Shown here: piece by piece, positions 1,660 through 19,218 of the stretch
How positions within the stretch are numbered: position 1 is the first letter of the stretch
How the letters are laid out: the number at the start of each line of letters is the position of its first letter
Source: Nocardioides piscis
Lineage (GTDB): Bacteria > Actinomycetota > Actinomycetes > Propionibacteriales > Nocardioidaceae
Direction of reading: 5' to 3'
DNA length: 64,000 nucleotides
Assembly (NCBI RefSeq): GCF_011300215.1
Contig: NZ_CP049866.1
Coordinates: 2,604,001 to 2,668,000, forward strand
The notes under the pieces: model-generated
Database searches by the model: none
Told to the model about the DNA's origin: nothing
Seen by the model: the letters and a program-made list of their open reading frames with translations, nothing else
Translations under genes and position numbers: made by a program

Positions 1660-2265
1660 TCAGTCCTCGAAACCGCGCGCGGCGAGCGCGTCCCCGATCT
1701 CCTCGGACCGGCGCAGGGCGCCGACGATGAGGGGTACGGCGAACGCGCGGGGACTGGCCGCGTGTCCGCGCGCGTGCTGGGCGTCGCGGACCTCGGCGGC
1801 CAGCTCGATCACCAGCGGCACGGCACGGATGCCGAGGTTGAGCATCAGCGCGACCCGCTCCGGGTTGACGCCGGGGAAGCGCAGAGGCCGGAGGAGTCTC
1901 ACGACCACGTCGACGAGGTCGGTGGTGCGGGTCGTGAGCGTGACGAGGTTGGCGAGCATCACCAGGGCGAGGATCACCCCGACGATGACGCTCGCGCGCG
2001 CCCACCCGACCACGAGCACCTGGAACGCGGCGAGCGGGACGGCGACCCACAGCACGGGGCGGAGGGAGTCCCACAGCACGCGGGGCGGGATCCTGGCCAC
2101 GACATGTCCGAGCAGCACGACAGCGAGCGACACAGCGGTGACGGCTGGAGTCCTCACGAAGACGGATCCGGCTCCACCGACGACCAGCACGGCGAGCTTG
2201 GTCTCCGCAGACATCCGGTGGAGCGCCGAGACGCCGGGCCGGTAGAGCCCGATGACGCCCGTCAT
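1660..2265 (-). CDS. bioN: biotin ECF transporter transmembrane protein BioN (EcfT)
   Basis: A 201-residue membrane protein with about five hydrophobic segments. It has two cytoplasmic Ala-Arg-Gly motifs, one in DAQHARGHA and one in DALAARGFED, which in EcfT proteins couple to the ATPase. Its ATG overlaps the bioM stop by 4 nt (ATGA), and it ends the minus-strand operon bioY - ligase - thiolase - bioM - bioN. Linkage to a clear BioY supports biotin as the substrate. The gene converges with the acyl-CoA dehydrogenase gene; only 12 nt separate the two stops. Confidence 0.9.
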   Translation of the reverse strand: MTGVIGLYRPGVSALHRMSAETKLAVLVVGGAGSVFVRTPAVTAVSLAVVLLGHVVARIPPRVLWDSLRPVLWVAVPLAAFQVLVVGWARASVIVGVILALVMLANLVTLTTRTTDLVDVVVRLLRPLRFPGVNPERVALMLNLGIRAVPLVIELAAEVRDAQHARGHAASPRAFAVPLIVGALRRSEEIGDALAARGFED

Positions 2266-4087: not shown

Positions 4088-5094
4088 TCGTCACCACCCC
4101 TCGCCGCCATTGCCGCGACCTCTGCGGCGAGCGCGACCCGGTCGATCTTCCCAGTGGGGTTGCGGGGCAGCGGGTCCAGGTGCAGCCAGCGGCGCGGCCG
4201 CTGAGCCGGGTCGAGCACGCGACGCGCGTGGGAGGCCAGGCGCGCGACGTCGTCATGGCGCGAGACGACGGCGACCACGACCTCCCCCAGGTCGGCATGG
4301 GGGAGTCCGACGACCGCCAGGTCGCCGGTGGTCTGTTCGCGCAGCGGGCGCTCGATGTCGGCGACAAGGACCGTGGCGCCGCCCGTGGTGATGCCGCCGT
4401 CGCGTCCGTGGACCCGGACGAACCCGTCGACGACCTCGCCGCGGTCGCCCACGCCCACCCAACCCTCCGCGTCGCGCTGGAGGAGATGTTCATCCTCTCG
4501 ATAGCCCTGGCAGGTGTAGGGCGACCGGACCCACAGTGCACCGTCGCGACTGGCCACCTCGACCCCGGGAAACGGCCGCAGGGCATCGGCGTGATCGCCC
4601 CAGGCGACGAACGAGAGCTCGGCGGCGCCGTAGTAGTGGCTGACCTCGGCGCCCACGCTCCGCGCGGCGTCGTACGTCGTGCGCTCGAGCCGGTCACCGG
4701 CGGTCAGGACGTGCAGTCCTGCCAGGTCGCCGGGTCGGGTTGCGAGCTCACGCCGCAACGCCCACGGGGTGAGGTGGGCATGGGTCGCGTCGTGGGGCCC
4801 GGTCGCGAGCGCCGCCCCCGCCCAGTCGGCGTGCGCCGCCGCGAACAGGTTCATCGTCGCTGTGATGGGGCCGGGGACCCACACGCGGCTGGAGGAGTCG
4901 ATCCCCAACAGCGCCGACACGTGGGGGAACGACTCCATCCAGGACTCAGTCGTCCGAACGACCGTGCGCGGCGACCCCGCGGTCCCCGACGTCCTCAGTG
5001 CGAGCAGTCGGTGCTCGCGGTGGGCGTCCGTGAAGGCGACGAGAGGATCCTCGGCCCCGAGGACGTCCACGGGATCAGGCGGAGGCATCCGCAT
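4084..5094 (-). CDS. short AMP-dependent acyl-CoA ligase (MenE-like size) in the biotin transporter operon
   Basis: About 336 residues of the ANL superfamily: P-loop TSGTAGSPRTVVRT near the N-terminus, YYGAAELSF (A5 region), GDRGEV followed by RDGGITTGG (hinge region), and NPTGKIDR carrying the C-terminal catalytic Lys. It lacks the roughly 150-residue N-terminal part of ordinary fatty-acyl-CoA ligases and is close in size to actinobacterial MenE. The ATG at 5094, or the one at 5088, overlaps the bioY end; longer frames are shadows. The stop overlaps the thiolase start by 4 nt. The acid substrate is unknown; the operon suggests a biotin-related acid such as pimelate (inference). Confidence 0.82.
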   Translation of the reverse strand: MRMPPPDPVDVLGAEDPLVAFTDAHREHRLLALRTSGTAGSPRTVVRTTESWMESFPHVSALLGIDSSSRVWVPGPITATMNLFAAAHADWAGAALATGPHDATHAHLTPWALRRELATRPGDLAGLHVLTAGDRLERTTYDAARSVGAEVSHYYGAAELSFVAWGDHADALRPFPGVEVASRDGALWVRSPYTCQGYREDEHLLQRDAEGWVGVGDRGEVVDGFVRVHGRDGGITTGGATVLVADIERPLREQTTGDLAVVGLPHADLGEVVVAVVSRHDDVARLASHARRVLDPAQRPRRWLHLDPLPRNPTGKIDRVALAAEVAAMAARGGDE

Positions 5095-5683
5095 GCTCGG
5101 ACGTGCGCCGCGAACGACGCTCCGGCAACAGCCCCGGGTAGGCCGCATGCACGCCGCGCGCCACCATCGCGCAGACGACTGCCTTGACCACGTCCCCGGG
5201 GATGTAGACCGCAGCCGCGGCTGTGGCAGCCGACAGGGTGAGGTCCGCCCGGGCCATCATGCCGATGATGCCCAGGACGTTGAGGATCACGACGCCGCCG
5301 ATCAGGTTGGCGGCCAGGCCCCACGGAAGCCGGTAGGGCGCAGCCATCGCATAGGTGAAGGCGCCCACGGCGTAGGCCGCGACCGGGAAGCCGATGAGAT
5401 AGCCGACCGACGGTCCGGCGAAGACGCCGAGCCCCCCGCGCCCGCCCGCGAGCAGCGGGAGCCCCAGTGCGACCAGGGCGAGGAAGACGACGAGCGCCAT
5501 CGCGCCGCGCCGCGGTCCGAGGATGGCGCCCGCCAGCATGACGCCCAACGACTGCGCTGTGATGGGCACGGCGCCACCGAACGCAGAGACGGCCGGGACG
5601 AGGCCGAGCACCGCGACGATGCCGGCGAAGACGGCGACGAGCGCGAGATCGCGGTTGGTGGACGTGGAGGGGCTGCGGGACAT
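5075..5683 (-). CDS. bioY: biotin ECF transporter substrate-binding protein BioY
   Basis: A 202-residue membrane protein with six hydrophobic segments and the BioY signature region GGRGGLGVFAGPSVGYL followed by IGFPVAAY. BioY is the membrane S-component that binds biotin and docks with BioMN. It is the first gene of a five-gene minus-strand operon. Its upstream region is shared with a divergent acyl-CoA ligase gene and contains two copies of the island's operator-like motif. The import function fits the nearby biotin-dependent acyl-CoA carboxylase. Confidence 0.94.
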   Translation of the reverse strand: MSRSPSTSTNRDLALVAVFAGIVAVLGLVPAVSAFGGAVPITAQSLGVMLAGAILGPRRGAMALVVFLALVALGLPLLAGGRGGLGVFAGPSVGYLIGFPVAAYAVGAFTYAMAAPYRLPWGLAANLIGGVVILNVLGIIGMMARADLTLSAATAAAAVYIPGDVVKAVVCAMVARGVHAAYPGLLPERRSRRTSEHADASA

Positions 5684-5742: not shown

Positions 5743-5764
5743 GTAGTGATCAGAAGTTCACTTT
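5743..5764. promoter_or_regulatory. candidate operator, copy 1 (bioY side)
   Basis: Reads GTAGTGAT-CAGAAG-TTCACTTT, 12 of 16 arm positions matching TTAGTGAA-N6-TTCACTAA. It lies in the divergent bioY/ligase intergenic region, nearer bioY than copy 2. Binding by a TetR-type repressor is inferred from the recurrence of the motif. Confidence 0.5.
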
Positions 5765-5810
5765 GCCGGGTCAATGACGGTGTTCCGACGGAAATCTACC
5801 CCAGCGACTC

Positions 5811-5839
5811 TTGGCAAGTGAATGCGTATTCGCTAAGGT
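5811..5839 (+). promoter_or_regulatory. promoter of the acyl-CoA ligase gene
   Basis: A -35 box TTGGCA (5811-5816), a 17-nt spacer, and a -10 box TAAGGT (5834-5839). The spacer is almost entirely filled by operator copy 2, so a bound repressor would block RNA polymerase. A GAGGAGG ribosome-binding site precedes the ATG at 5868. Confidence 0.6.
5815..5836. promoter_or_regulatory. candidate operator, copy 2 (acyl-CoA ligase)
   Basis: Reads CAAGTGAA-TGCGTA-TTCGCTAA, 13 of 16 arm positions matching the shared motif. It sits between the -35 and -10 boxes of the promoter. Confidence 0.6.
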
Positions 5840-5867
5840 GAGATGACCATCACAGAGGAGGCAAGGA

Positions 5868-7531
5868 ATGAGTTCATCGTCGTCAGAGTCTGTCGCGCTG
5901 GATGTCGAGACCCTGTTTGACCGCCGTGCGGACAAGCGGTGGGACCGGGTGTGCGTCGCCGACCTCGTCGAGCGCCTCACCTGGAGCACCCCCGACAGGG
6001 AGGCCCTGGTCGCGGCCCCGGGGGCCTGCGCCGACCCGGCGTACGAGCGGCTCACCTTCCTCCAGCTCGATCAGCTCATGAACCAGGTTGCGCACGGCCT
6101 GAGCGACTCGGGGCTCGGTCGTGGTGACCGCGTGGTGATGGTCTGCGAGAACACGGTGGAGGGCTACGCGTTCAAGCTGGCCGCTGCCAAGGTCGGGGTC
6201 GTCGTCTCGCCGCTCAACCCCAATCTCGCCCCGGACGTGGTCGAGCACCTGTTGGAGAGGATCGACCCGAAGCTCGTGGTGGTGGATGCCGAGCTCTGGC
6301 CCCGCGTGGAGGCGGCGTTCGGGGCCTACGGCCGCACCCCCGACGTCACCATCGAGGTGGGCGGTGCCGTCATCGACGGCAGCCGCTCGTTCACCGACTT
6401 CGTCGCCGACCGTCCCACGACCGAACCCGAGGCGACCGTGCACGGCGACGACATCTGGGAGATCCTCTTCACCTCCGGGACCACCGCGATGCCCAAGGGC
6501 GTCATGGGCTCCCACTCGTCTGCCGTGCTGGCCGCGCACGGCTTCGCCCTGACGCTCACCCGTGGCCTGCGCTTCGAGGGTGACCTCAAGGTCGCGACGT
6601 TCCTGCCGATGATGTATCACGTCGGGCACCTGGTCTTTGCTCTCTCCGCGTTTGCCGCCGGAGGCTCCATCGTGCTGGGCCGAGCCCCGGACCCCGTCGC
6701 CATCGCGGACGCCATCGACCGGGAGAAGGTCACGGCACTGTGGGGGGATCGCCCGCGATGATGAAGGCACTCGCCGACGTCCTGGAGGGTGGCGAGCGCG
6801 ACGCGTCCTCGCTCACGGTCGCGGTCTACGGGTGGGCGGCTCTGCCGCCGGCTGTCCTGAAGACCTTGAAGAAGCACGCTCCCGCCCTCGAGGTCGTCGA
6901 GATCTTCGGTCAGACCGAGTCGATCTCCTGCCACCGGTTCTGGCCGGGCATGTGGCCCGAGGTCTATGAGGCCACGGCGCCCCAGCAGAACTACGTCGGA
7001 CTGCCCAGCCCGTTGCTGGCCTCGCGCATCTTCGACCAGGAGGGCAGGCCGGTCGACCTGCCGGGCGAGGCGGGCGAGGCCGTCTACCGCTCCCCGGTGA
7101 TGACGGCCGGCTACTACAAGGACGAGGCAGCCACCCGGGAGGCGTTGCGGGGCGGCTGGTTCCACTCCGGCGACAGCTGCCTGTTCGACGACGACGGCCT
7201 GCGGGTGATGGTGGACCGCTACAAGGACCTGGTGAAGTCCGGTGGGGAGAACGTCTCCACCATCCGGGTCGAGTCCGTGCTCTCCATGCACCCGGGCGTT
7301 CAGAAGGTCGCCGTCGTCGGTGTCCCCGACGAGCGGTGGGGCGAAGCCGTGACGGCGGTGGTGGTCCCCGTCGTGGACGGAGGCGTCACGGCCGAGGAGC
7401 TCATCGCCTTCGGACGCGAGCGTCTGGCCGGCTTCGAGACCCCCAAGGAGGTCATCTTCGTCGACGCGCTGCCCGAGACCGTCGGCGGCAAGGTGATGAA
7501 GTACCGCATCCGCCAGTCCCTGCAGTCCTGA
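5868..7531 (+). CDS. fatty-acyl-CoA ligase, AMP-forming (one frame break)
   Basis: When the frame is repaired the product is about 554 residues and activates a carboxylic acid to acyl-CoA. The N-terminal part has the P-loop LFTSGTTAMPKGVMGSH. The C-terminal part has IFGQTES, the GWFHSGD region, the VMVDRYKDLVKSGGENV hinge and the C-terminal Lys region PETVGGKVMKYRIRQSL. The frame shifts at the G run 6742-6747: six G are present and seven restore ALWGGSPAMM. The gene is divergent from bioY and runs toward the second acyl-CoA dehydrogenase. A promoter with an operator-like palindrome lies upstream. The substrate is unknown. Confidence 0.9.
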
Positions 7532-7579
7532 CCCATCACGAAGGGCGCCGGCCTGAACGCGGCGCACCAAGGAGACCAG

Positions 7580-8730
7580 TTGAACTTCGAAGAGAGCTAC
7601 GAGCACGCCTCGCTGCGCAAGACCGTGGCCCAGGTGTGCGCCGGGTTCGGTGACGACTACCTGCGCAAGGTCCTCGCCGAGGACGGCCGCACGCATGACC
7701 TGTGGCGTGCCCTGGGGGAGTCCGGCCTCCTCGGGGTCAACCTGCCGGAGGAGTACGGCGGGGAGGCGCGGGCATCCAGGAGCTGGCGATCGTCGTGGAG
7801 GAGACCGCTGCGGCCGGCAGCCCGCTCCTGCTGCTCCTTGTCTCGGCCGCGATCTCGGGCGAGGTCATCAAGGAGTTCGGGTCCGTCGAGCAGAAGCAGC
7901 GCTGGCTGCCCGCCATGGCGGACGGGACCGACAAGATCGTCTTCGCCATCACCGAGCCCGACGCCGGCTCGAACACCCATCAGCTCTCGACCAGGGCTGT
8001 GCGAGACGGGGACGAATGGGTCCTGTCGGGCACCAAGTACTACATATCCGGCGTGGACGAGGCCTCCAACCTCCTGGTCGTCGCGCGCACCGGCACGGCA
8101 GACAACGGTCGCGGCGAGATGACGCTGTTCGTGGTCCCCACGGACGCCGAGGGACTCGACCGGGCCTTGATCCCGGTCGAGGTCCGGGCTCCCGAGAAGC
8201 AGTACACGCTGACCTTCGACGGTGTCCGCGTGGCCGACGACAGGCGAGTCGGGGACGTGGGTGCGGGCATGGAGATCGTCTTCCGTGGGCTCAACCCTGA
8301 ACGCATCACCGGTGCTGCGATCGAGACGGGCATCGCTCGCTACGCGCTGGCGAAGGCCTCGAAGTATGCCCGTGAGCGTGAGGTGTGGGGTGTGCCGATC
8401 GGCTCCCACCAGGGGGTCTCGCACCCGCTCGCGGCGGCTGCCGTGGATGTCGAGCTCGCGAGACTCATGACGGCGAAGGCAGCCTGGTTGCACGACCACG
8501 GGCTGCCAGCGGGAGAGGCGTCCAACATGGCCAAGTACGCCGCGGCGGAGGCCGCCCTGAAAGCCCTCGACACCGCCATCCAGACCCATGGGGGCAACGG
8601 GCTGGCCACCGAGTACGGCCTGGCGCACCTGTGGGGGACAGCACGCCTGCTGAAGGTTGCCCCGGTCAGCAGGGAGATGGTCCTCAACTTCGTGGCCACG
8701 CACACCCTTGGACTTCCGAGGTCCTACTGA
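7580..8730 (+). CDS. acyl-CoA dehydrogenase, divergent subfamily (one frame break)
   Basis: The repaired product is about 383 residues. The TTG start at 7580 follows an AAGGAG ribosome-binding site. The N-terminal frame ends in NLPEEYGG; adding one G to the run 7760-7763 continues it as GGAGIQELAIVVEE. The flavin-binding region FAITEPDAGSNTH is present. The C-terminal end reads APVSREMVLNFVA where most family members have the catalytic-Glu motif EGTNQIQR, so the usual glutamate is absent. Actinobacteria have paired acyl-CoA dehydrogenases in which only one chain carries it, so this may act with a partner (inference). It overlaps the next gene by 1 nt. Confidence 0.87.
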
Positions 8731-9532
8731 TGGCGCCGGGCCCCGCGCCGGCGGCAGACGCGCCTCCGGTGCCGATGATCGCGGGCGTGCCCGAGCAGCT
8801 GTTCGGCCTCCAGGGGCTGAGGGTCGATGATGACGGCTCGATCGCGGGAACCGTGCCCACCGGCCCGTGGCTGGCGGGGCCTGACGGGCAGGGAGAGGTC
8901 GCCGGACTCGGCGTGCTCATCGATGTCGTCCTGGGCTATGCCGCCGTCCAGCTCAGCGACGGCTGGGCGCTCAGCACGGAGATCTCCGTGGATGTCGTGG
9001 GGCTCGTGCCGACCGACGGCACCCCGGTGGCCTGCAGCGCTCGCGTCGTGCACGAGGACCCGGAGGGCGCCCTGGTGGAGGGTGAGGTCACTGACAGCCG
9101 TGGTGGCGTCGTGGCGCGCTGTTCCATGCGCGCTCGGTTCGTCGACGCCCGTCCGGGGGGCCACCGGCCCCCGCTTCCCGGTCGCCTCGACCTGCCGACG
9201 CCGCGAGCCTCACGGCGCTCCTGGGCGAGGACGTGGTCGTGTCCGGCAGCGGCGCTCGGGTCACCGTCTCCGAGCGGTTCTCCAATCCGTTGGGGCACTT
9301 CCACGGTGGGATGGTCTTCTGTCTGCTCGAGTGGATGGCCGCAACCGCGATGCCGGCTCCGGCGCGCACCGCATCGATCCGGATACAGATCGTCCGAGGC
9401 GCACCGCAAGGAACCGTGCTGCACCTCACCGCGGAGCCGGTGCACCGTGGCCGCACGTTGGGCGTCGTCCAGGTCACCTCCCGCGACGAGGCCGGCCGTA
9501 CCTGCGCGGTCGCCACCGTGACGCGGCACTAG
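8730..9532 (+). CDS. tandem hotdog-fold thioesterase-like protein (one frame break)
   Basis: The repaired product is about 267 residues with two hotdog domains. The N-terminal domain runs to about residue 145 (VAGLGVLIDVVLGYAAVQ helix). The C-terminal domain carries NPLGHFHGGMVFCLLEWM, the PaaI/4HBT-type helix motif. The break lies in the linker at the G run 9155-9160: adding one G gives a smooth linker, PGGPPAPASRSPRP, before ADAASLTALLGE. Likely hydrolysis or binding of acyl-CoA; the substrate is unknown. The ATG at 8730 shares one base with the upstream stop. A TetR gene follows 27 nt later. Confidence 0.75.
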
Positions 9533-9559
9533 GATCGCGACACCGAAAGGAGCCTGACC

Positions 9560-10144
9560 TTGGCACAACGCACGCGTGACCCCGCCCGCAGGGAGAAGAT
9601 CCTCGACGCTGCCGCGGGGCTCCTGGCCGACAGCGGCTATCACACCGTGTCGATGGCGGAGATCGGAGAACGCGCCGGCATCACGGGGTCAGGCATCTAC
9701 CGCCACTTCGAGAGCAAGTCCGCGATCCTGGTGGTGCTCTTCGAGCAGGTCATCGACGACCTGCTGGCGCAGGGACGGGCAGCGGTGGAGGGCAACGCCG
9801 ATCTCCGGGCGGCCCTCGACGAGCTCATCACAGGACAGGTCGACTTCGTCGTCAGCAAGCGCCACCTCGCGCAGGTCTACCACAACGACATCTCCAACCT
9901 GCCCCGCGAGGACCAGGTGCGCCTGCGCCGCAAGCAGCGGCTCTACCTCGAGGAGTGGGTCCACGTCTTCGGGGAGCTCGAGGGCCTGGACGAGCCGATG
10001 ACACGGACCAAGGTCCACATCGCGATCGGCGCCATCCAGGCAGTGTTGTTCCACCAGGTGACCCTGCCCGACGACGTGCTGAGGGAGACCTTGACCCAGG
10101 CGGCGTGCGCGGTGCTGGGTCTCGACCTGACAGGGCCCGGCTAG
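9560..10144 (+). CDS. TetR-family transcriptional regulator
   Basis: A 194-residue repressor-type protein. Its N-terminal helix-turn-helix is at about residues 30-55 (MAEIGERAGITGSGIYRHF followed by ESKSAIL); an all-helical ligand-binding domain of unknown ligand follows. The TTG start at 9560 follows an AAAGGAG ribosome-binding site. It is the last gene of the ligase - dehydrogenase - hotdog run and the only TetR gene in the window, so it is the best candidate to bind the TTAGTGAA-N6-TTCACTAA motif, probably released by an acyl-CoA (inference from family behaviour). It overlaps the convergent ligase gene by 4 nt. Confidence 0.92.
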   Translation: MAQRTRDPARREKILDAAAGLLADSGYHTVSMAEIGERAGITGSGIYRHFESKSAILVVLFEQVIDDLLAQGRAAVEGNADLRAALDELITGQVDFVVSKRHLAQVYHNDISNLPREDQVRLRRKQRLYLEEWVHVFGELEGLDEPMTRTKVHIAIGAIQAVLFHQVTLPDDVLRETLTQAACAVLGLDLTGPG

Positions 10145-11733
10145 CGGGCCGAGGAGCTGCGCCGCTGCCCGCCGTCCCAGGTCGTGGTCGAGATGCCACG
10201 GCTGCGGAGCTCCTGCTTGCGGATCTTCTGGGTCGAGGTCTTGGGCAGCTGGTCGACCAGGTCCACATAGCGGGGTACGGCGAAGTAGGGGAGCCGCCCC
10301 GCGGCGAAGTCGACGAGGTCGGACGGCTCCAGCTGGTGTCCGCTCTCGGTGACGACACAGGCCATGACACTGTCCTCGCCGAGGTCGCTCGGCACGCCGA
10401 ACACGGCCACCTCGGCGACTGCAGGGTGTGACGACAGGACCTGCTCGACCTCGAAGCTGCTCACGTTCTCGCCCGAGACCCGAAGGGCGTCCTTGAGCCG
10501 GTCCTGGAAGTAGAACCACCCGTCGTCGTCCTGGATCAGCATGTCGCCGGTGTGGAACCACGCGTTGCGGTGGGCCTCCCAGGTCTTGTCCGGTTGGCTC
10601 CAATAGCCGAGCTGCCCGACGAAGGGCCTCGAGGGTCGGGTGACCAGCTCACCGGGGACACCGGCCGGCACGGGCTCGTCCATGGCATCGACCAGGGCCA
10701 CCTCCCAGCCGGGCGCCGGCCGCCCACAGGACCCGGGACGACGCTCCCCGTGCGGTGTGCCGATGGGAATGCTGGTGTCGGTCGAGCCGTAGAGCTCATT
10801 GATCAGCATTCCGAAGCGCTGCTCGAAGGCGATGTGGTCGCGCTTGGGGAACGGCACCACCATGGCCAGTCGCAGTCGGTGGGTCGACTCCTCGGGCTGA
10901 GGCTCCTGCTTCCACAAGATGGCTCCCATCGCGCCCAGCATGTTGGTCACGGTGGCGCCGGAGTCGGTGATCTCACGCCAGAAGCGGCTCGCGCTGAACC
11001 GCGGTGAGACCACGACCGGCGCACCCTGCTGCAGACCCGCCAGGAAGGCGGTGAAGAGAGCATTGATGTGGAAGAGCGGGAGGCACGTGTAGATGGTGTC
11101 CTGCGCCGTGTATCCCATCACCCAGGTTGCGTTCTCACTGAAGGCCAACGCGGTCCGGTGCGACCACATGACGCCCTTCGAGGGGCCCGTGGTGCCGGAC
11201 GTGAAGAGGATGGAGAGCAGCTCAGCGTGCCCGCTCTCGTGCGAGTCGCGGAGTGGCTCGGCCTCTCTGAGGTCGGAGAAGGCGAGCGCCCCGACGGGCA
11301 GCTGGTCCCCCTCACGGCTCGGGATCCACCACGTGGAGAGCACGGTGCCGGCCCCTGCCAGCTCCTGGGGGACCGCGTCGTAGTACTCCGCCTCCACCAC
11401 CAGGCGGCAGGGCCCGACCATCTCGAGCATGTAGGTCAGGACGTCCCCGCGCATCGCCGTGTTGATCGGCACCGAGACGGCGCCGAGCGACGAGACGGCC
11501 AGGTAGGTCACCAGGAACTCAGGACGGTTGCCGACGAGGATCGCGATCCGGTCACCCGGCGCGACCCCTGCGGCGGCCAGCCCAGCGGCCACTCGCCGTA
11601 CCTCGGTCAGGAGCTGTTGCCGCGTGAAGCCAGGTCCGTCCACGAAGGACACCGCGGGTGCATCCGGATCGGCCTCGACCGCGGCCTCGAGGATCCCGTG
11701 GACTGACGTGGCCCGGAGGGTGGAGGAACTCAT
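10141..11733 (-). CDS. AMP-forming acyl-CoA ligase
   Basis: A 530-residue ANL enzyme: P-loop LFTSGTTGPSKGVMWSH, NELYGSTDTS (A5 region), WFHTGDML, FYFQDRLKDALRVSGENVS (hinge), and PKTSTQKIRKQEL with the C-terminal catalytic Lys. It resembles the CaiC/fatty-acid-CoA ligase group, and a role in activating an imported acid is inferred. It is transcribed alone, divergent from the Liv importer. The promoter places the -10 box 6 nt before the ATG, so the transcript is probably leaderless, with an operator-like repeat in the spacer. Confidence 0.93.
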   Translation of the reverse strand: MSSSTLRATSVHGILEAAVEADPDAPAVSFVDGPGFTRQQLLTEVRRVAAGLAAAGVAPGDRIAILVGNRPEFLVTYLAVSSLGAVSVPINTAMRGDVLTYMLEMVGPCRLVVEAEYYDAVPQELAGAGTVLSTWWIPSREGDQLPVGALAFSDLREAEPLRDSHESGHAELLSILFTSGTTGPSKGVMWSHRTALAFSENATWVMGYTAQDTIYTCLPLFHINALFTAFLAGLQQGAPVVVSPRFSASRFWREITDSGATVTNMLGAMGAILWKQEPQPEESTHRLRLAMVVPFPKRDHIAFEQRFGMLINELYGSTDTSIPIGTPHGERRPGSCGRPAPGWEVALVDAMDEPVPAGVPGELVTRPSRPFVGQLGYWSQPDKTWEAHRNAWFHTGDMLIQDDDGWFYFQDRLKDALRVSGENVSSFEVEQVLSSHPAVAEVAVFGVPSDLGEDSVMACVVTESGHQLEPSDLVDFAAGRLPYFAVPRYVDLVDQLPKTSTQKIRKQELRSRGISTTTWDGGQRRSSSAR

Positions 11734-11739
11734 GGAGGC

Positions 11740-11768
11740 ACTGTAGTTAGGGGATGTTCACTAAGCAA
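11740..11768 (-). promoter_or_regulatory. leaderless promoter of the AMP ligase gene
   Basis: On the minus strand a -35 box TTGCTT (11768-11763), a 17-nt spacer and a -10 box TACAGT (11745-11740), then 6 nt to the ATG at 11733. Operator copy 3 occupies the spacer. Confidence 0.55.
11743..11764. promoter_or_regulatory. candidate operator, copy 3 (AMP ligase)
   Basis: Reads GTAGTTAG-GGGATG-TTCACTAA; the right arm is a perfect match and the left matches 5 of 8. It lies between the -35 and -10 boxes of the ligase promoter. Confidence 0.5.
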
Positions 11769-11829
11769 GAGTCGTCGGGTGCTGGCCCACAGGCCCGGCG
11801 GGTGATGGTCTGAGGCGCAACTCAACGAG

Positions 11830-11851
11830 ATAGTGAATTGATTGTTACTAA
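11830..11851. promoter_or_regulatory. candidate operator, copy 4 (Liv operon)
   Basis: Reads ATAGTGAA-TTGATT-GTTACTAA, 13 of 16 arm positions matching the shared motif. It lies about 70 nt upstream of the substrate-binding protein start. Confidence 0.5.
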
Positions 11852-11854
11852 CCT

Positions 11855-11876
11855 CTTGTGAATTGCCACTCACTTG
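11855..11876. promoter_or_regulatory. weak candidate operator, copy 5 (Liv operon)
   Basis: Reads CTTGTGAA-TTGCCA-CTCACTTG, 11 of 16 arm positions, starting 3 nt after copy 4. It is weaker than the other copies; the side-by-side arrangement is the main reason to list it. Confidence 0.3.
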
Positions 11877-11918
11877 TGTCACCGTATGACCGTCGTCACA
11901 CCCACCCGGAGGAATCTC

Positions 11919-13121
11919 ATGTCGCAAGCGAATCAGTCAGGTCCCATCCGACGGGGCCGCCTGGCGCTCGTCGGAACTGCCACTCTCTGCCTGTCCGTCC
12001 TGGCCGCCTGCGGAGGCAGCGGCAACGGCTCGGCAGGTCCGGGCGGTGAGGACGGGATCCCCGACACCGTGCAGCTCATGGCCAGCGTGCCGCTCACGGG
12101 ACCGGCGGCCTTCGCCGGCGCGGAGGCCGAGAAGGGCTACGAGCTGGCCATGGAGGAGATCAACGAGACCGGGTTCCTCGGCGACGGGGTGACCCTGGAC
12201 ATCGACATCCGAGACACCCAGGCATCGGTCCAGAAGGCAGCCAGCGACTTCACGTCCGCCGTGACCGATCCCGAGATGACTGCTGTGCTCGGTTCCCTCA
12301 GCAGCGGCGAGGCGGTGGCCCAGTCGCCGATCGCCGAGCAGAAGAAGATGCCGGTGGTCTACATCCAGGCCGGCTCGCCGGGGATCGTGCTGGGTGACTA
12401 CACCTATCGCTTCCCCGTGCCGATGTCGGAGTACTACGACATCCTCTCCCAGCAGGTCGAGGAGGAGGGCTGGAAGTCCATCGGCATCGTCTACGCCCCC
12501 TGGATCCCCACGCTCAAGGAGCTCGGCGAGAACGCCATTCCGGCCATGGCCGAGGAGCTGGGCATGGAGATCACCTCGACGGTGGCGACCCAGCAGACCA
12601 CCCAGGACTTCAGCGCCCCCATCCAGCAGGTGCTCAAGACCAACCCCGACGTCGTGTCGATCCTGCAGATCGGCCCGGCCAACGCCACCGCGATGAAGCA
12701 GCTTCGCCAGGCCGGCTACGACGGCAAGGTCCTGGGCAACTCCTCCGCAGGGGCCGACACGCTCCTCCCGGCCGGTCCGGCCGGCGCGGGGATGTTGTGG
12801 CCGGTCGACTTCGACCACGCCTCCGAGGACCCCGCGACGCAGGAGTTCGTCGAGCTGTATCGCGACGCCCACGACGGGGAGGACCCCTTCCCCTACGCCG
12901 CTGAGGCCTACGACGCCACCTGGTTCATCGCCCGCGCCGTGAAGGAAGCCGACAGCGCCGGCCGCGAGGACGTGGTGGCTGCGATGAAGGCCCTGACCGA
13001 GGAGCCGTTCACCGGCGCCCTGGGAACAGAGCTCTCCTTCGAGGAGAACAGCCTGAAGGTCAAGGGCGTCGTCATCGAGTGGGACGGCAAGGAAGAGCAG
13101 TTCCTCTACGCCGCGCAGTGA
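11919..13121 (+). CDS. Liv-type ABC transporter substrate-binding lipoprotein
   Basis: About 400 residues. The ATG at 11919 is chosen for its CGGAGGA ribosome-binding site and because it opens a lipoprotein signal: positively charged start, hydrophobic core, lipobox VLAAC with Cys at residue 31. The mature part is a type I periplasmic-binding fold (Peripla_BP_6), beginning VQLMASVPLTGPAAFAGAEAE. It is the first gene of the binding protein - permease - permease - ATPase - ATPase set. The family imports branched amino acids, amides or aromatic and other carboxylates. Given the flanking acyl-CoA ligases, a carboxylate is plausible (inference). Confidence 0.93.
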   Translation: MSQANQSGPIRRGRLALVGTATLCLSVLAACGGSGNGSAGPGGEDGIPDTVQLMASVPLTGPAAFAGAEAEKGYELAMEEINETGFLGDGVTLDIDIRDTQASVQKAASDFTSAVTDPEMTAVLGSLSSGEAVAQSPIAEQKKMPVVYIQAGSPGIVLGDYTYRFPVPMSEYYDILSQQVEEEGWKSIGIVYAPWIPTLKELGENAIPAMAEELGMEITSTVATQQTTQDFSAPIQQVLKTNPDVVSILQIGPANATAMKQLRQAGYDGKVLGNSSAGADTLLPAGPAGAGMLWPVDFDHASEDPATQEFVELYRDAHDGEDPFPYAAEAYDATWFIARAVKEADSAGREDVVAAMKALTEEPFTGALGTELSFEENSLKVKGVVIEWDGKEEQFLYAAQ

Positions 13122-13127
13122 CGGTCC

Positions 13128-13157
13128 GGGCGGCCGGTGCGACTGCGCCGGCCGCCC
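13128..13157 (+). terminator. intercistronic hairpin after the binding-protein gene
   Basis: An inverted repeat with arms of 13 nt (12 pairing), GGGCGGCCGGTGC and GCGCCGGCCGCCC, around a GACT loop. There is no T tract, so it is more likely an attenuator or mRNA-stabilising hairpin that raises binding-protein level over permease than a full terminator. Confidence 0.5.
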
Positions 13158-13191
13158 GTCCCCCTCACTCCCAGCAGATCGGAAGAGAACC

Positions 13192-14079
13192 GTGCAAGAA
13201 GTCGTAGGAGCCGTCAGTCTCGGCTCGATCTATCTGATGTTCGCCCTCGGGCTGAGCGCAGCATGGGGAACCATCGGGATCCTCAACTTCGCCCACGGCT
13301 CGATCTTCATGTTCTCGGTGTTCGTCTCCCACCAGGCGCTCCAGGTCACCGACATCCCGATCGTGGGCCTGGCGCTCATCGCGGTCGTCGTCGGCGCACT
13401 GTTGTCGTTCCTCACCCAGGCGTTGGCGTTCGACCAGATCATCAAGCGGTCCGCCAACGAGCATGCAGCCGAGACAAGGATCCTCATCGGCGGGATCGGC
13501 GTCGCGATGATTCCGCTCGCGATCGCCGCCCACGTCACGAAGAACTCTCCCTTCGGCCTCCAGTCGGCAGCCACCGGCATCGAGGTCTGGCAGCTCGGTG
13601 GTGTCCGGATCAGCAGCGTCCAGGTGGCCACGATCGTCTGCGCCCTTACCATCGCCGCGGCGTTGGGCGTGTGGCTGCGTCGCTCGCGCCAGGGCCTGGC
13701 CCTGAGGTCCCTGGGCGTCGACACGGAGGTCGCCTCCCTGATGGGCATCGACCGGCGACGGCTGGCCTGGGGCACGATGGCCTTCGCCGGCGGCCTCGCG
13801 GGCCTGGCAGGCATCCTGTTGACGCTCAACCTCGGCGCCATCACCGCCGAGAGTGGCGACAGCCTGCTCATCAAGGCGTTCGCGTGCGTCGTCCTGGGCG
13901 GCGTGGGCAGCACTCTCGGCGTGGTCACCGGTTGTTTCATGCTGGCCTTCGCCGAGACGTGGGTCCTGACCCAGACAGGTGGTCTGTGGGTCGAGGCGGT
14001 CTCGTTCGGCCTCATCTTCGCGGTGCTCCTGCTGCGGCCCCAAGGCATCTTCGGGCGCGAAGAGGTGCGTCGCGTATGA
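13192..14079 (+). CDS. branched-chain-type ABC transporter permease LivH
   Basis: A 295-residue membrane protein with about eight hydrophobic segments and the LivH motifs GLSAAWGTIGILNFAHGS near the N-terminus and FAGGLAGLAGILL in the C-terminal half. The GTG start at 13192 follows a GGAAGAG ribosome-binding site. It pairs with LivM to form the import channel. Its stop overlaps the livM-like start by 4 nt (ATGA), so translation is probably coupled. The substrate is set by the upstream lipoprotein and is unknown. Confidence 0.93.
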   Translation: MQEVVGAVSLGSIYLMFALGLSAAWGTIGILNFAHGSIFMFSVFVSHQALQVTDIPIVGLALIAVVVGALLSFLTQALAFDQIIKRSANEHAAETRILIGGIGVAMIPLAIAAHVTKNSPFGLQSAATGIEVWQLGGVRISSVQVATIVCALTIAAALGVWLRRSRQGLALRSLGVDTEVASLMGIDRRRLAWGTMAFAGGLAGLAGILLTLNLGAITAESGDSLLIKAFACVVLGGVGSTLGVVTGCFMLAFAETWVLTQTGGLWVEAVSFGLIFAVLLLRPQGIFGREEVRRV

Positions 14080-15029
14080 CCGGCTTCTACGACACCAACC
14101 TGGTGCTGATCCAGGGGACGCTCGTGGCAGTCCTGCTCGCCCTGAGCGTCCAGGTCCCCTTGCGGTTCGGGATCTTCTCCCTGGCCGGTGTCGGGTCCTA
14201 CGGGATCGGTGCCTACCTGTCGGCCAACCTCGTCCTTCGCTACGAGATGGCGTCCGTGCCCACGATCGTGCTCACGGGCCTCGTCACGGCGATCGTCGGT
14301 CTGGTGCTGGGGCTGGTCATCTATCGCCTCGGCGGGCTCTACCTGGCGATGGCGACGATCGCGTTCGACCTGATGGTCGCCGTGGTGGCGCTCAACGGGG
14401 GCGAGTGGACCGGCGGCCCGGTCGGGCTCTTCGGGATCTTCAGCGACCTGACCATGGGGATCATGGTCGCCGTGGTGGCGATGTGCGTGGTCGCCATCCA
14501 CCTGACCGAGCGAGGCAAGCTGGCTCGGCGGATCACCGCCGTACGCGAGGACATCGAGCTCGCGTCCTCGGTCGGCACCAACGTGCGCGCCTATCGGTTG
14601 GCAGCGTTCGTGGTGAGTGGATTCATCGGTGGTGTAGCCGGTTCCTTGAACACGCTGACCCGCTACGCGGTCGGTCTCCAGGACGTGAGCTTCCACCTCG
14701 TGATCGTCGCCCTGACCATGATCATCGTCGGTGGTGCCCTCTCGTGGCGCGGAGCCGTCATCGGCGCGGTCCTCTTCACCTGGCTGCCCGAGGTCCTTGC
14801 GTTCGTGGGGGACTGGCAGGAGCTCGTCTACGGCGTGATCGTCGCGTTGGCCGGGATCTTCCTGCCGACCGGGCTCTACGGCCTGTGGGGTCGTGCTCGT
14901 CGGCGGATCACCTCTCGCCGGGACAAGTCCTCGACAGTCGGGACCACGAAGTCGAGCAGCGACCAGGCCGGTCACCACTCGAAGACAGCCGCACACCCGA
15001 GTCCGGACCGGAAGGTGGCACCCCGATGA
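14076..15029 (+). CDS. branched-chain-type ABC transporter permease LivM
   Basis: About 317 residues with eight or more hydrophobic segments. LivM features include FGIFSLAGVGSYGIGAYL, GLYLAMATIAFDLMV and VREDIELASSVGTNVRAYR. The C-terminal tail of about 45 residues is polar and rich in Ser, Arg and His, which is longer than usual. The ATG at 14076 overlaps the livH-like stop; the long frame opening upstream is a shadow. Its stop overlaps the ATPase start by 4 nt. Confidence 0.92.
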   Translation: MTGFYDTNLVLIQGTLVAVLLALSVQVPLRFGIFSLAGVGSYGIGAYLSANLVLRYEMASVPTIVLTGLVTAIVGLVLGLVIYRLGGLYLAMATIAFDLMVAVVALNGGEWTGGPVGLFGIFSDLTMGIMVAVVAMCVVAIHLTERGKLARRITAVREDIELASSVGTNVRAYRLAAFVVSGFIGGVAGSLNTLTRYAVGLQDVSFHLVIVALTMIIVGGALSWRGAVIGAVLFTWLPEVLAFVGDWQELVYGVIVALAGIFLPTGLYGLWGRARRRITSRRDKSSTVGTTKSSSDQAGHHSKTAAHPSPDRKVAPR

Positions 15030-15856
15030 GCGCCAGCCCAGACAGCCCAGACAGCCCAGACGGCACCGCCGAGGTGCCGGTGCTCGAGACCAGGGACCTC
15101 GCGGTCCACTACGGCGGGATCAAGGCGGTCGACGGCATCTCGATGTCACTGCGGCCCGGTCTGATCTCCGGAATCATCGGGCCCAACGGCTCGGGCAAGA
15201 GCACGCTCGTGGCGGCGCTGACCAGGTTGACGCACCTGACCCGCGGTGAGATCTATTCGGCCGGCGAGCGCTACGACCACCTGCCTCCGGGCAAGATCGC
15301 GGGACTCGGCATCGCCCGGACGTTCCAGACCGTTCGTCTGCTCCCCGAGCTCACCGTCGCCGAGAACGTCATGCTCGGCAACGACTCGGTCGCCGAGGGT
15401 GGTCTGCGTGGACTCGCCGGGCTCCGTGGCCGGCTCGGACGTCGCAGTCGATCCGCGAACCCCGTCGTCGAGGAGGCCCTGGAGCGCACTGGCCTCGACG
15501 CATTCCGCGACGCACTGCCCGGTGACCTGTCCTACGGCACCCAGCGGCGGGTGGAGATCGCCCGCGCCATTGCGATGCGGCCCCGCCTGCTGCTTCTCGA
15601 CGAGCCGACGGCCGGGATGAACCAGGCCGAGCGAGGAGAGATCTCGAGGCTGATGATGCAGCTGCGCGACGAGGGGCTGGCGCAGCTGCTGATCGAGCAC
15701 GACGTCCAGATGATGCTCGACACGTGCGACCACATCTTCGCGATGGCGCAGGGGCGACTGCTGACCGAGGGTCGACCCAAGGACGTGGTCGGCGACGAAC
15801 GGGTCCAAGAGGCCTACCTCGGCAAGAACTGGAGGGGCCATGTTGGAACTCGCTGA
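15026..15856 (+). CDS. branched-chain-type ABC transporter ATPase LivG
   Basis: A 276-residue ATPase with Walker A GPNGSGKST, a Q-loop in FQTVRLLPELTVAEN, signature LSYGTQRRVEIARA, Walker B LLLLDEPTAGMN and switch His in LIEHDVQMM. The signature LSYG is the LivG/BraF form. The first 12 residues carry a three-fold Ser-Pro-Asp repeat encoded by a 9-nt tandem repeat. The start at 15026 overlaps the upstream stop (ATGA); the 3' end overlaps the next ATPase gene by 17 nt. Confidence 0.93.
   Translation: MSASPDSPDSPDGTAEVPVLETRDLAVHYGGIKAVDGISMSLRPGLISGIIGPNGSGKSTLVAALTRLTHLTRGEIYSAGERYDHLPPGKIAGLGIARTFQTVRLLPELTVAENVMLGNDSVAEGGLRGLAGLRGRLGRRSRSANPVVEEALERTGLDAFRDALPGDLSYGTQRRVEIARAIAMRPRLLLLDEPTAGMNQAERGEISRLMMQLRDEGLAQLLIEHDVQMMLDTCDHIFAMAQGRLLTEGRPKDVVGDERVQEAYLGKNWRGHVGTR
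15035..15061 (+). repeat. 9-nt tandem repeat, three copies, inside the LivG gene
   Basis: AGCCCAGAC is repeated three times exactly, in frame, encoding Ser-Pro-Asp three times near the N-terminus. Being in frame, copy-number change would not break the gene. Confidence 0.85.
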
Positions 15857-16559
15857 CGTGCATGTCCGCTACGGCCACGTGGAGGCGGTGAGTGGCGTGG
15901 ACCTGAAGGTGGAACCCGGCACCGTGAGCCTCGTCCTCGGCCCCAACGGAGCCGGCAAGAGCACGACGCTCAAGGCGGTGGCAGGCCTGGTCCCGCTGTC
16001 CTCGGGGTCGATCGGGCTCGACGACGAGCCCTTGTCGGGGCTTCCACCCCACCGCGTCGTACGCCGAGGCGTGGCTCTGGTGCCAGAGGGGAGGCGCGTC
16101 TTCGCGCCGCTCACGATCGAGGAGAATCTTCGGCTGGGTGGTTACACCGCCCCACGGGCCAAGGTCCGCGAGACGCTCGCGCGGGTCTATGAGATGTTCC
16201 CGATCCTCAACGACAGGCGGGCGTCCGCCGCAGGGCTGTTGAGCGGCGGCGAGCAGCAGATGCTCGCCTTCGGCAGGGCGCTCATGTCGGAGCCCAAGAT
16301 CGTCCTGCTCGACGAACCCTCGATGGGACTCGCTCCCACGGTCGTGGACACGATCATCGAGAAGATCGTGCTGATGGCGGAGTCGGGCATCGGGATCTTG
16401 ATGGTCGAGCAGAACACCGAGGCGGGTCTCGACATCGCCTCCGAGGTCCGGGTCATGAACCGTGGCCAGGTGGTCTTCGCAGGCCCTGCGGAGCAGGTGC
16501 GCACCGATGCCTCGGTCCTGCACGCCTTCCTGGGCGACGCGGCGTTGGCCGAGGGCTGA
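15840..16559 (+). CDS. branched-chain-type ABC transporter ATPase LivF
   Basis: A 239-residue ATPase: Walker [28 protein letters not shown] (typical LivF), signature [16 protein letters not shown], Walker [14 protein letters not shown] and switch region LMVEQN. It works with LivG to power the two permeases. The ATG at 15840 lies inside the end of the LivG gene. It is the last gene of the importer operon, and a hairpin follows 22 nt after the stop. Confidence 0.94.
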
Positions 16560-16581
16560 GCAGACCGTTTCCAGCCGACGA

Positions 16582-16602
16582 CCGAGGGCCGACGGCCCTC
16601 GG
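16582..16602 (+). terminator. hairpin after the Liv operon
   Basis: A perfect 9-bp stem, CCGAGGGCC and GGCCCTCGG, with loop GAC. No T tract follows. It lies between the importer operon and the next promoter, so it probably separates the two transcripts. Confidence 0.5.
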
Positions 16603-16610
16603 GAGATGGG

Positions 16611-16639
16611 TTGACAGCGGACCGAAAATTAGTCATAGT
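16611..16639 (+). promoter_or_regulatory. promoter of the AtuA-carboxylase operon
   Basis: A perfect -35 box TTGACA (16611-16616), a 17-nt spacer, and a -10 box CATAGT (16634-16639). The -10 box overlaps operator copy 6, so repression by occlusion is expected. Confidence 0.65.
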
Positions 16640-16656
16640 GAATTCACTTTCACTAA
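16629..16656. promoter_or_regulatory. candidate operator, copy 6 (AtuA operon), strongest palindrome
   Basis: The core AGTGAATTCACT (16637-16648) is a perfect palindrome. Bases 16635-16656 read ATAGTGAA-TTCACT-TTCACTAA, matching the shared motif at 15 of 16 arm positions. The 28-nt whole is itself an imperfect palindrome with only two mismatched pairs, as if two operators were interleaved. It covers the -10 box. Confidence 0.65.
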
Positions 16657-16669
16657 GAACGGTAGGACC

Positions 16670-18041
16670 ATGACAGACAAGAAGATCGTGATCGGTAACG
16701 GCCAAGGGTTCTGGGGCGACTCGGCACGCGGCCCCGTCCAGCTCGTGCGCGGAGGAGGGATCGACTACCTCACGATGGACTTCCTCGCCGAGGTGACGAT
16801 GAGCATCATGCAGAAGCTGCGGGCCAGGAACCCCGAGGCCGGCTACGCGAGCGACTTCGTCGCCCAGCTCGAGCGGATCCTCCCGAGTGCGTCGAGCACG
16901 GCATCAAGATCATCGCCAACGCAGGCGGGGTCAACCCGGATGCCTGCGCGCGGGCCATCGACGACGTGGTCCGCAAGCTCGGGCTCGAGGTCACGGTCGC
17001 GACAGTGGGCGGCGACGACATCATGGACCGCCTGCCGGAGCTCCTGGGCTCGGGACACCCCCTGTCCAACATGAACACGGGTTCGACCCTCGAGTCCGAG
17101 CTCGACAAGGTCCAGAGCGCCAACGTCTATCTCGGTGCCTTCCCGATCGCCGAGGCGCTCGCGGCCGGCGCAGACATCGTCGTCACCGGCCGGGTCACCG
17201 ACCCCTCCCTGGTGCTGGCGCCCCTGATCCACGAGTTCGGCTGGGGCGAGACCGACTACGACCTTCTGGCCTGCGGCACCGTCGCCGGCCATGTCCTGGA
17301 GTGCGGGACCCAGAGCACCGGTGGCAACTACGACCGCTGGGAGACAGTGCCCAACCTCGCCGACATCGGCTACCCGATCGTCGAGGTGAGTCGGGACGGC
17401 ACCTTCGTGGTGACCAAGAAGGACGGAACCGGGGGACTGGTCGACGTCGGCACCGTGACCGCCCAGCTGCTCTACGAGCTCGGAGAGCCGACGCGCTACC
17501 TGACGCCCGACGTGACGGCCGACTTCACCTCGATCCAGCTCGAGCAGGACGGGGACGACCGGGTCCGGGTGAGTGGCGTCGTGGGCACCCCGCCCACCGA
17601 CAGCTACAAGGTCTCGATCAGCACCCTGGACGGGTGGCGCACCACGGCACAGCTCACCGTCGGCGGGCCGGACGCGCCGGCCAAGGCACGCGTGACCGCC
17701 GAGATCCTGCTGGCCCGGCTCGCGCAGGACGGTGTCACCTTCCCGGACGCGGACTGCCGGGTCGAGGTCATCGGCACCAACGTGCTCTACGACCAGATGC
17801 TGCCCGAGCGGACGGAGGATCCGACCGAGGTCGTCCTGCGCATCTCGGTCCGGTCCACGGACAAGGTCGCGGTCAACCGCCTCGGGGCCGAGATGGCCTC
17901 GTTGCTGACCTCCGGGCCTCCCGGCCTCACCGGTTTCGCAGGGGCCGTCCCAAGGCCAGCGAGATCGTCGGCTTCTGGCCGGCTCTCATCGACAAGTCGG
18001 CAGTCACTGCCGCCGTACACGTGAACGAGGTCGTCGCATGA
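16670..18041 (+). CDS. AtuA-family (DUF1446) protein (two frame breaks)
   Basis: The repaired product is about 457 residues, starting [17 protein letters not shown]. Adding one C at 16882-16884 restores [19 protein letters not shown]; adding one G at 17941-17944 restores [19 protein letters not shown]. Between the breaks the frame has [16 protein letters not shown], a typical DUF1446 block. AtuA is needed for acyclic terpene use in Pseudomonas, but its biochemical role is unknown. Here it is the first gene of an operon with its own C-terminal domain gene, a phosphotransacetylase-like gene and a carboxylase. It is regulated by the promoter/operator at 16611-16656. Confidence 0.88.
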
Positions 18042-18370
18042 AGAACGTCCAGCTGAGGGAGATCGCCTGCGCACGCTCGGGCGACAAGGGCGCCGATGCC
18101 AACATCGGGGTGTGGGTGGAGGACGAGCGAACGTTCGAGTTCCTGAGGGAGAACCTCACCGCCGACAAGGTGGAGAGCCACTTCCAGGCCCTGTGTCGCG
18201 GCGGCGTCGAGCGATACGAGCTCCCCAACCTGAAGGCCCTCAACTTCATCCTTCATGACGCGCTCGACGGCGGAGGTGCCGCCTCCCTGCGGACCGACGC
18301 CCAGGGCAAGACCCTGTCGCTCGGCCTGCTCCAGATGGTGCTCGAGGTCCCCGACGAGCTGCTGCGGTGA
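18038..18370 (+). CDS. AtuA C-terminal-like domain protein (ferredoxin-like fold)
   Basis: A 110-residue protein whose start, LREIACARSGDKGADANIGV, matches the domain fused to the C-terminus of AtuA in other bacteria. Here it is a separate gene overlapping the AtuA stop by 4 nt (ATGA), so the two products probably form one complex. No catalytic motif is recognised. Its stop overlaps the next gene by 4 nt (GTGA). Confidence 0.85.
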   Translation: MKNVQLREIACARSGDKGADANIGVWVEDERTFEFLRENLTADKVESHFQALCRGGVERYELPNLKALNFILHDALDGGGAASLRTDAQGKTLSLGLLQMVLEVPDELLR

Positions 18371-19218
18371 AGGTCCGCGTCGGGCTTGCGGACGGCCGTG
18401 ATCCACGCGTCCTCCAAGCCGCCGAGCGACTGGTCGAGCTCGGGGAGGTGACGCCCGTCCTCGTCGACCACGAGCTGGGCGACCTGCCTCACGGTGTGGA
18501 CCACCTGGTGGTGCCCGCCGGCGAGTCCGGAGTCGACTACCTGGCTCGGACGCTCGAGCACTCGGACCTGGTCGGAGGGGTGAGCGGCAGCCTGACCACG
18601 AGCGCCGAGGTCGTGCGGGCCGGCATCCGCAACCTCCGGTCCGAGGACCTCGTCTGCGGGGCGTTCGCCATCGAGCACGACGACGGGTGGAAGACCTACG
18701 CAGACTGCGTCGTGGTCCCGGAGCCCGACGCGGCTCAGCTCGCTGTGATCGCTGCGGCGGCGGCCGACCACCACCGAAGCCTGTTCGACGAGGTGCCCCG
18801 GGTCGCGATGCTGTCGTTCTCGACGGGCGGCAGCGCGGCTCATCCCAGGGTGGCGCTGGTCCGCGAGGCGACCCGACTCCTGACCGCCGCACGCCCCGAC
18901 CTGGAGGTGGTCGGTGAGGTGCAGTACGACGTGGCGATCGATGCTGCCGTCGCGGCGCGCAAGGCCCCGGGGTCGACGGTCGCCGGGCGTGCCAACGTCC
19001 TCGCCTTCCCGTCCCTGGAGGCGGCGAACATCGCCTACAAGGTCGCTGAACGAGTCGGAGGCAGCCGAGCGCTGGGGTCGTTCCTCCTGGGCCTGTCCCG
19101 ACCGTGGGTCGACTTGTCCCGCGGCTGCTCGATCGACGACATCGTCGAGACCGTCCTCTTGATCGGGCGCCAGTCATCTGCGCCTCACCCCATGGCCGCG
19201 CACCCCGTGGCCTCCTGA
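18367..19218 (+). CDS. phosphotransacetylase/phosphotransbutyrylase-family protein
   Basis: 283 residues of the PTA_PTB family. Matches include VGGVSGSLTTSAEVVRAG, RVAMLSFSTGGSA, AARKAPGSTVAGRANVLAFP and DLSRGCSIDDIVETV; the Ser, Arg and Asp of the last block correspond to active-site residues in characterised Pta. It is about 50 residues shorter than single-domain Pta at the N-terminus. Known members interconvert acyl-CoA and acyl phosphate. No acyl kinase gene is nearby. The GTG at 18367 overlaps the upstream stop. Its presence between AtuA and a carboxylase is unexpected, and its substrate is unknown. Confidence 0.82.
   Translation: MKVRVGLADGRDPRVLQAAERLVELGEVTPVLVDHELGDLPHGVDHLVVPAGESGVDYLARTLEHSDLVGGVSGSLTTSAEVVRAGIRNLRSEDLVCGAFAIEHDDGWKTYADCVVVPEPDAAQLAVIAAAAADHHRSLFDEVPRVAMLSFSTGGSAAHPRVALVREATRLLTAARPDLEVVGEVQYDVAIDAAVAARKAPGSTVAGRANVLAFPSLEAANIAYKVAERVGGSRALGSFLLGLSRPWVDLSRGCSIDDIVETVLLIGRQSSAPHPMAAHPVAS

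Follow-up and report, generated by a model that had tools for sequence, protein, structure and literature searches.

Introduction

Two regulators described so far resemble the system reported here. BkaR, the branched-chain keto-acid repressor, is a known switch of leucine breakdown. It is identical with Fad35R (PMC3920632), is represented by the protein chain 4G12 (PMC4418694) and has been proven to repress, with palindromes in tandem (PMC3920632). In Pseudomonas, the TetR protein AtuR (with RdmA) represses a cluster of the AtuA/geranyl-CoA-carboxylase type, whose atuA promoter contains two operators (PMC9973270). For the actinobacterial AtuA/carboxylase island no published regulator was found in the open-access literature. 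Here we analyze such an island in Nocardioides piscis (64,000 nucleotides, contig NZ_CP049866.1, positions 2,604,001 to 2,668,000; this whole stretch is called the window), in which a palindrome recurs upstream of acyl-coenzyme A (acyl-CoA) genes and a TetR regulator is encoded at 9560. With a probability of roughly 80%, this TetR represses three units of the island through the palindrome, is released by an acyl-CoA, and represents a relative of BkaR with a shifted operator.

Results

An earlier note on this DNA had listed six copies of the palindrome, and all six coordinates carry the sequences described there. At up to three mismatches, TTAGTGAA-N6-TTCACTAA matches the window four times, compared to a mean of 0.01 in 100 shuffles. 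In the 3.78-Mb genome (3,784,668 bases, one contig) TWAGTGAA-N6-TTCACTWA is found at the same tolerance in eight places, six of them in the island (A1 at 5743, A2 at 5815, B1 at 11743, B2 at 11830, C1 at 16629 and C2 at 16635; B3 at 11855 is too weak for this list), while a control scan with the reversed pattern gave one place. The two places outside the island (matrix scores 10.8 and 8.9) lie inside long open reading frames with a high G+C content at third codon positions and look like chance matches. Equal frequency elsewhere in the genome, which the earlier note had named as evidence against its idea, was hence not observed. For the matrix we used 26 sites, none of which came from the window or its three nearest relatives; they had been found via a consensus suggested by window and relatives, so that the matrix is out-of-sample in sequence but not in idea. 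The six reported sites and a seventh copy, C1, take the first seven ranks in the window with scores between 31.9 and 17.1, and the eighth position scores 4.7; the best of 20 block shuffles reached 14.6. The better, refined consensus for the putative operator is TTAGTGAAT-N4-ATTCACTAA. Its core is GTGA-N8-TCAC, and some half-sites read GTTA (e.g. in B1 and at locus L016).

The palindrome is conserved in three genomes of the same genus (G719, G720 and G549), whose TetR is 78-79% identical to the island TetR. There, the A pair, the B group and the C site are found at the corresponding promoters amid diverged flanks. The distance within the A pair is 71 bp in the relatives vs. 72 bp in the window, C2 agrees in all 22 bases, and B3, called weak in the earlier note, is kept 25 bp from its neighbor; B1 has a weak counterpart with 5-6 mismatches. 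Since the aligned stretches of G719 and G720 differ very little, these two genomes amount to little more than one comparison. At up to four mismatches, a mid group of 13 loci (TetR identity 54-67%, 203 kb) yielded 11 sites (shuffles 0.2), a low group of ten loci (187 kb) three (shuffles 0), and eight distant loci (152 kb) none (shuffles 0). The sites in other genera precede ligB, LivK, AtuA, carboxyltransferase or TetR genes; these genera include Gordonia, Saccharopolyspora, Rhodococcus, Pseudonocardia and Aeromicrobium, the last with one perfect copy. Even at up to five mismatches no site was found in five of the 13 mid loci (L010, L012, L020, L119, L125) and five of the ten low loci (L018, L019, L120, L122, L128); longer stretches gave sites for the genomes of L125 (upstream of ligB) and of L119/L120 (12 kb off), and L020 has GTTA-type sites. 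In 58 non-orthologous loci, 17 matches at up to four mismatches were found vs. five in one shuffle, so related palindromes adjoin other TetR genes, too. That the copies arose by chance or form a non-regulatory repeat is practically negligible as an explanation: several single copies in the window are imperfect, with 3-6 of 18 bases off the consensus, but the shuffles, the genome-wide count, the out-of-sample matrix and the footprints in relatives all contradict it. The palindrome itself is real.

Its distribution follows the TetR gene. TetR carriers are rare, with eight of 215 genus genomes (E<=1e-35) and four of 149 family genomes; from this patchiness the island is an accessory unit, possibly a transferred one. 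The palindrome (at up to three mismatches, as in the following counts unless stated otherwise) occurs in nine of 209 genus genomes, the reversed control in one of 209. Six of the eight genus carriers have it vs. three of 201 non-carriers (Fisher 2e-8), and among 25 genomes chosen for carrying the TetR it is present in 15 (control in two). A binomial value calculated along with the genus comparison treats overlapping sites as independent. In G734, a palindrome matched in the genome-wide scan pointed to a further TetR (45%), which is flanked by one site on each side and accompanied by ligB and an acyl-CoA dehydrogenase gene. The phylum-wide survey of 396 genomes is uninformative (TetR in three, palindrome at up to two mismatches in eight, both only in the own genome). 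A general tie of the palindrome to AtuA genes was considered and rejected, as AtuA homologues (E<=1e-50) are present in 193 of 203 genus genomes, far more than carry the palindrome. The palindrome is also absent from the genomes with the most similar AtuA operons and no TetR (G551, G579, G633 and G642; gene order phosphotransacylase-AtuA-ferredoxin-carboxyltransferase).

The protein encoded at 9560 belongs to the TetR family (PF00440, 56 bits, cut-off 24) and, as previously claimed, is the only TetR of the island, and indeed among the 30 window open reading frames scanned with Pfam. Its predicted structure has nine helices (mean predicted local distance difference test score 90.5), and its three best fold matches are BkaR/Fad35R chains, with 6yj2 as the nearest (template modeling scores 0.85/0.89). 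The best NCBIfam model is SACE_7040 (NF050111) with 144.9 bits, below the cut-off of 250; the four island-type proteins scored (window, L015, L016 and L020) reach 145-161 bits. BkaR of M. septicum, whose gene diverges from one of the accD1 type and has two GTTA palindromes at a distance of 25 bp, scores 272 bits on the same model. BkaR and SACE_7040 thus form one family, to which the island TetR does not belong. A tree separates 27 island-type from 18 BkaR-type proteins (support 100/100), and the island clade is the sister clade of BkaR/SACE_7040.

The own genome also harbors a separate BkaR orthologue (L227, C1:968438-968980; 249.9 bits on the SACE_7040 model, cut-off 250). Directly upstream of it lies GGTTAGCGAGCGCTAACC; a scan with a free-base pattern found nothing here, and a separate inverted-repeat search gave GGTTAG-N6-CTAACC, a repeat of the GTTA-N8-TAAC type (matrix -15.9). 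This BkaR, or some unlinked regulator, could in principle read the palindrome and leave the island TetR as a mere passenger. The presence of BkaR, the kinship of the operator families and the three genomes that carry one palindrome each without any TetR (G592, G638 and G672, loci L186-L188; matrix 20.9-28.7) are in line with such a scenario. Around the latter palindromes no island genes were found within 14-15 kb, bar generic matches of the ATP-binding cassette type, and some of these palindromes may serve another regulator. In contrast, the GGTTAG half-site and negative matrix score at BkaR, the tracking of TetR rather than of AtuA operons in general, and the palindromes next to TetR genes in several genera make another reader of the island sites improbable.

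The recognition helix (predicted helix 43-48) offers a link between regulator and operator. Residue 44 is Ser in the island TetR and Pro, Ala or Gln in relatives. In a search with the third half-site base left free, GTGA occupies one or both halves at all 17 Ser44 loci that gave a site (L180 counted by the TetRs of its genome). Of the 29 loci that gave a site and have another residue at position 44, 27 possess at least one site with GTTA on both sides; the two exceptions are L211, which is mixed, and L127, whose weak GTGA-type site lies 6 kb away from the TetR gene. Kinship of the loci inflates these counts, and the pattern found no site in eight Ser44 loci and many BkaR loci. The most telling rows are L020 and L121, which have Ala44 inside the island (Ser44) clade; their GTTA sites precede a carboxyltransferase and a ligase gene. 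Residue 44 correlates with the changed half-site base. That this one helix position insulates the TetR from its paralogue, Ser44 reading G (GTGA) and Pro, Ala or Gln reading T (GTTA), is a tentative idea to which we give slightly less than even odds. If true, branched-chain and isoprenoid acyl-CoA regulons would be kept separate in one cell on otherwise matching operators.

At AtuA the position of the operator suits a repressor (Table 1): a TTGACA box (16611-16616), a 17-bp spacer and a CATAGT box (16634-16639) form a promoter-like site whose -10 box is overlapped by the operator, a layout that is the same in the relatives. The earlier note had seen sites in the spacer or over the -10 box at three promoters; the promoter scanner bears this out at AtuA and detected no promoter in the A and B regions, where TTGGCA-17-TAAGGT around A2 was read by eye only. 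An activator, or a repressor that needs acyl-CoA to bind, is hardly to be expected here. TetR-family activators do exist, and the model of FasR, a named activator, is among the matches of the island TetR, but its 57 bits are far under the cut-off of 330, the operator over the -10 box points to repression, and the nearest relative, BkaR, is a repressor (PMC3920632). The 25 bp between B2 and B3 match the spacing of BkaR tandem sites (24-26 bp in ten hand-picked pairs of both kinds), and the 6-bp shift between C1 and C2 might leave room for two dimers. A Fisher value computed along with the spacing comparison disregards common descent and is not a probability. The GGGG in B1 may be the effect of an assembly indel. 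In the window ligC separates the TetR gene from the Liv operon, and in the relatives L114 and L117 it lies at the far cluster end; to judge from this order, ligC has moved within the island. Both relatives keep a weaker site just after TetR, so B1 would be older than the present place of ligC.

Several further observations weigh against our interpretation. Ten of the 25 genomes chosen for carrying the TetR lack the palindrome, as do the genus carriers G680 and G687, with a GTTA-type site in its place in G680. The silent promoter scanner in the A and B regions, the imperfect copies and the three palindromes without TetR belong here as well, and synteny confounds part of the footprint in the relatives.

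The gene bioY, which the earlier note had included in its single regulon, is not upheld as an anchor. In the stretches of the three relatives no BioY match was found, yet A1 is kept 71 bp from the ligase site; A1 therefore belongs first to the ligase promoter, and control of bioY by A1 in the own genome is possible. What stands is a single regulon of acyl-CoA ligase genes, Liv importer genes and the AtuA/carboxylase operon, with the island TetR as probable regulator. On the minus strand (1660-5683) bioY heads an apparent operon with an acyl-CoA ligase (partial match), a thiolase, a bioM-like ATPase and a bioN-like CbiQ protein. Next to the island of the three nearest relatives we did not find this bioY-ligase-thiolase operon, which is reminiscent of Bacillus yhfUTS.

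Table 1. Coordinates of putative operators, promoter and genes in the window.
Feature	Position	Strand	Remarks
bioY	5075..5683	-	neighbor of A1; regulon membership possible only
Operator A1	5743..5764	.	matrix 21.7; between bioY and ligB
Operator A2	5815..5836	.	matrix 24.6; 31 bp ahead of ligB ATG
Acyl-CoA ligase ligB	5868..7531	+	frame broken near 6745
Acyl-CoA dehydrogenase	7702..8730	+	start uncertain
4HBT thioesterase-like protein	8691..9520	+	frame broken near 9155-9191; homology to L116, Pfam on relative
TetR regulator	9560..10144	+	sister clade of BkaR; Ser44 in helix 43-48
Acyl-CoA ligase ligC	10141..11733	-	
Operator B1	11743..11764	.	matrix 17.1, weakest; 10 bp ahead of ligC start
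Operator B2	11830..11851	.	matrix 25.8; Liv promoter region
Operator B3	11855..11876	.	matrix 21.1; 25 bp from B2
Liv-type importer (binding protein, permease, two ATPases)	11874..16559	+	LivG by homology of reading frame
AtuA promoter-like site TTGACA-17-CATAGT	16611..16639	+	promoter scanner: 1 found, 0.0 in shuffles
Operator C1	16629..16650	.	matrix 21.7; overlaps C2, 6-bp shift
Operator C2	16635..16656	.	matrix 31.9, strongest; over -10 of AtuA promoter
AtuA + AtuA ferredoxin-like protein	16670..18370	+	AtuA frame broken near 16882 and 17945
Phosphotransacylase-like protein	18367..19218	+	
Carboxyltransferase	19240..20838	+	geranyl-CoA-carboxylase-like pocket
Biotin carboxylase/biotinyl subunit	20851..22835	+	two overlapping frames
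Enoyl-CoA hydratase	22828..23592	+	

Five frame breaks affect four island genes (those in Table 1 and one in the biotin carboxylase gene near 21864-22017). They are likely assembly indels rather than decay; ligB, the thioesterase gene and AtuA are whole in the relative L116, and a run of six G lies at the ligB break.

As to the pathway, the carboxyltransferase gives mixed signals. It scores best to methylcrotonyl-CoA carboxylase both over its full length (525 vs. 460 bits for geranyl-CoA carboxylase) and in the pocket segment (176 vs. 164 bits), and the hydratase fits no special class, all of which would agree with the same operator and TetR serving the breakdown of leucine/isovalerate (methylcrotonyl-CoA) or of another small branched acid. 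Geranyl-CoA carboxylase lacks a 3-residue insertion ahead of the pocket residue and has Gly in place of the Phe of methylcrotonyl-CoA carboxylase (PMC4673880). By this rule the island enzyme departs from the methylcrotonyl type: it aligns ungapped on 5ikl (geranyl-CoA carboxylase) and with a 3-residue gap on 3u9r (methylcrotonyl-CoA carboxylase), and its pocket residue is the small Ala, neither the Phe nor the Gly. It also stands with AtuA, and the own genome has its separate BkaR. The small-acid pathway is therefore possible and yet the less probable of the two; the geranyl-CoA-carboxylase-like pocket makes isoprenoid-type acyl-CoA catabolism, with a bulky substrate, appear likelier by about two to one.

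Discussion

Our data are best explained by a repressor that responds to the products of its own regulon. The refined palindrome would be the operator of the TetR encoded at 9560. Bound to it, a TetR dimer would block the promoter of ligB-acyl-CoA dehydrogenase-thioesterase-TetR and thereby limit its own synthesis, as well as the promoters of the Liv importer plus ligC and of AtuA-carboxylase-hydratase. The protein would be released once its pocket is filled by an acyl-CoA that the ligases of the island produce, most likely a branched one of isoprenoid type. The shift from GTTA to GTGA in each operator half would keep this regulon apart from that of BkaR in the same cell.

A testable regulator, operator and regulon can now be proposed for the actinobacterial AtuA/carboxylase island. 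Among the TetR paralogues a single helix residue seems to vary along with a single operator base, and such a natural series would be a clean case for how duplicated repressors avoid cross-talk. Biosensors for isoprenoid acids might be derived from TetRs of the island kind.

Related palindromes were also seen elsewhere. Distant TetRs of Auribacterota and Bacteroidales (L050, L076, L079 and L080) have one at 9954, TTTGTTAGTGAATATTAACTAA and variants, 47 bp ahead of the matched TetR start (the match begins at 10001), and the operator family may be much wider than the actinobacterial island. TetRs of the Yaniella/Enteractinococcus type with Gln44 (L024, L025 and L027-L030) share palindromes like AGTTTATG-N-TGACTAACT near 9885-9909, about 90-120 bp ahead of the TetR match.

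Compared to known systems, Bacillus FadR and mycobacterial KstR and KstR2 are likewise acyl-CoA-type TetR repressors of similar fold. The island TetR reaches only 55 bits on the FadR model (cut-off 200), 32.7 bits on the KstR model (cut-off 280) and 40 bits vs. a KstR2 chain. Mce3R is its best PDB sequence match (94 bits), but is a double-domain protein with a non-palindromic 25-bp site (PMC11667970). FadR, KstR and Mce3R were rejected as homes for the island TetR on score, clade or operator, and the likeness to the Bacillus FadR half-site suggested in the earlier note gives way to BkaR as the nearest known system. AtuR, compared here by operator and description, is also a TetR regulator of an AtuA/geranyl-CoA-carboxylase-type cluster, but its operator (AGCAAGCGCTTGG / CCAAGCGCTTGCT; PMC9973270) differs from that of the island. 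BkaR/Fad35R (Rv2506, MSMEG_4718; NF050111) provides the nearest fold (6yj2), with 34% identity between the island TetR and M. septicum BkaR. It shares the 16-bp palindrome of the same frame (GTxA-N8-TxAC) with tandem sites about 25 bp apart, and controls carboxylase and acyl-CoA genes as well. In contrast to BkaR, the island TetR falls in a separate clade (100/100) and scores 145 bits against a cut-off of 250, has Ser44 for Pro and a consensus with GTGA half-sites in place of GTTA-N8-TAAC, and is encoded in a gene set with AtuA rather than by an accD1-type methylcrotonyl-CoA carboxylase operon, with a carboxyltransferase pocket that is not accD1-like; both proteins occur together in the own genome.

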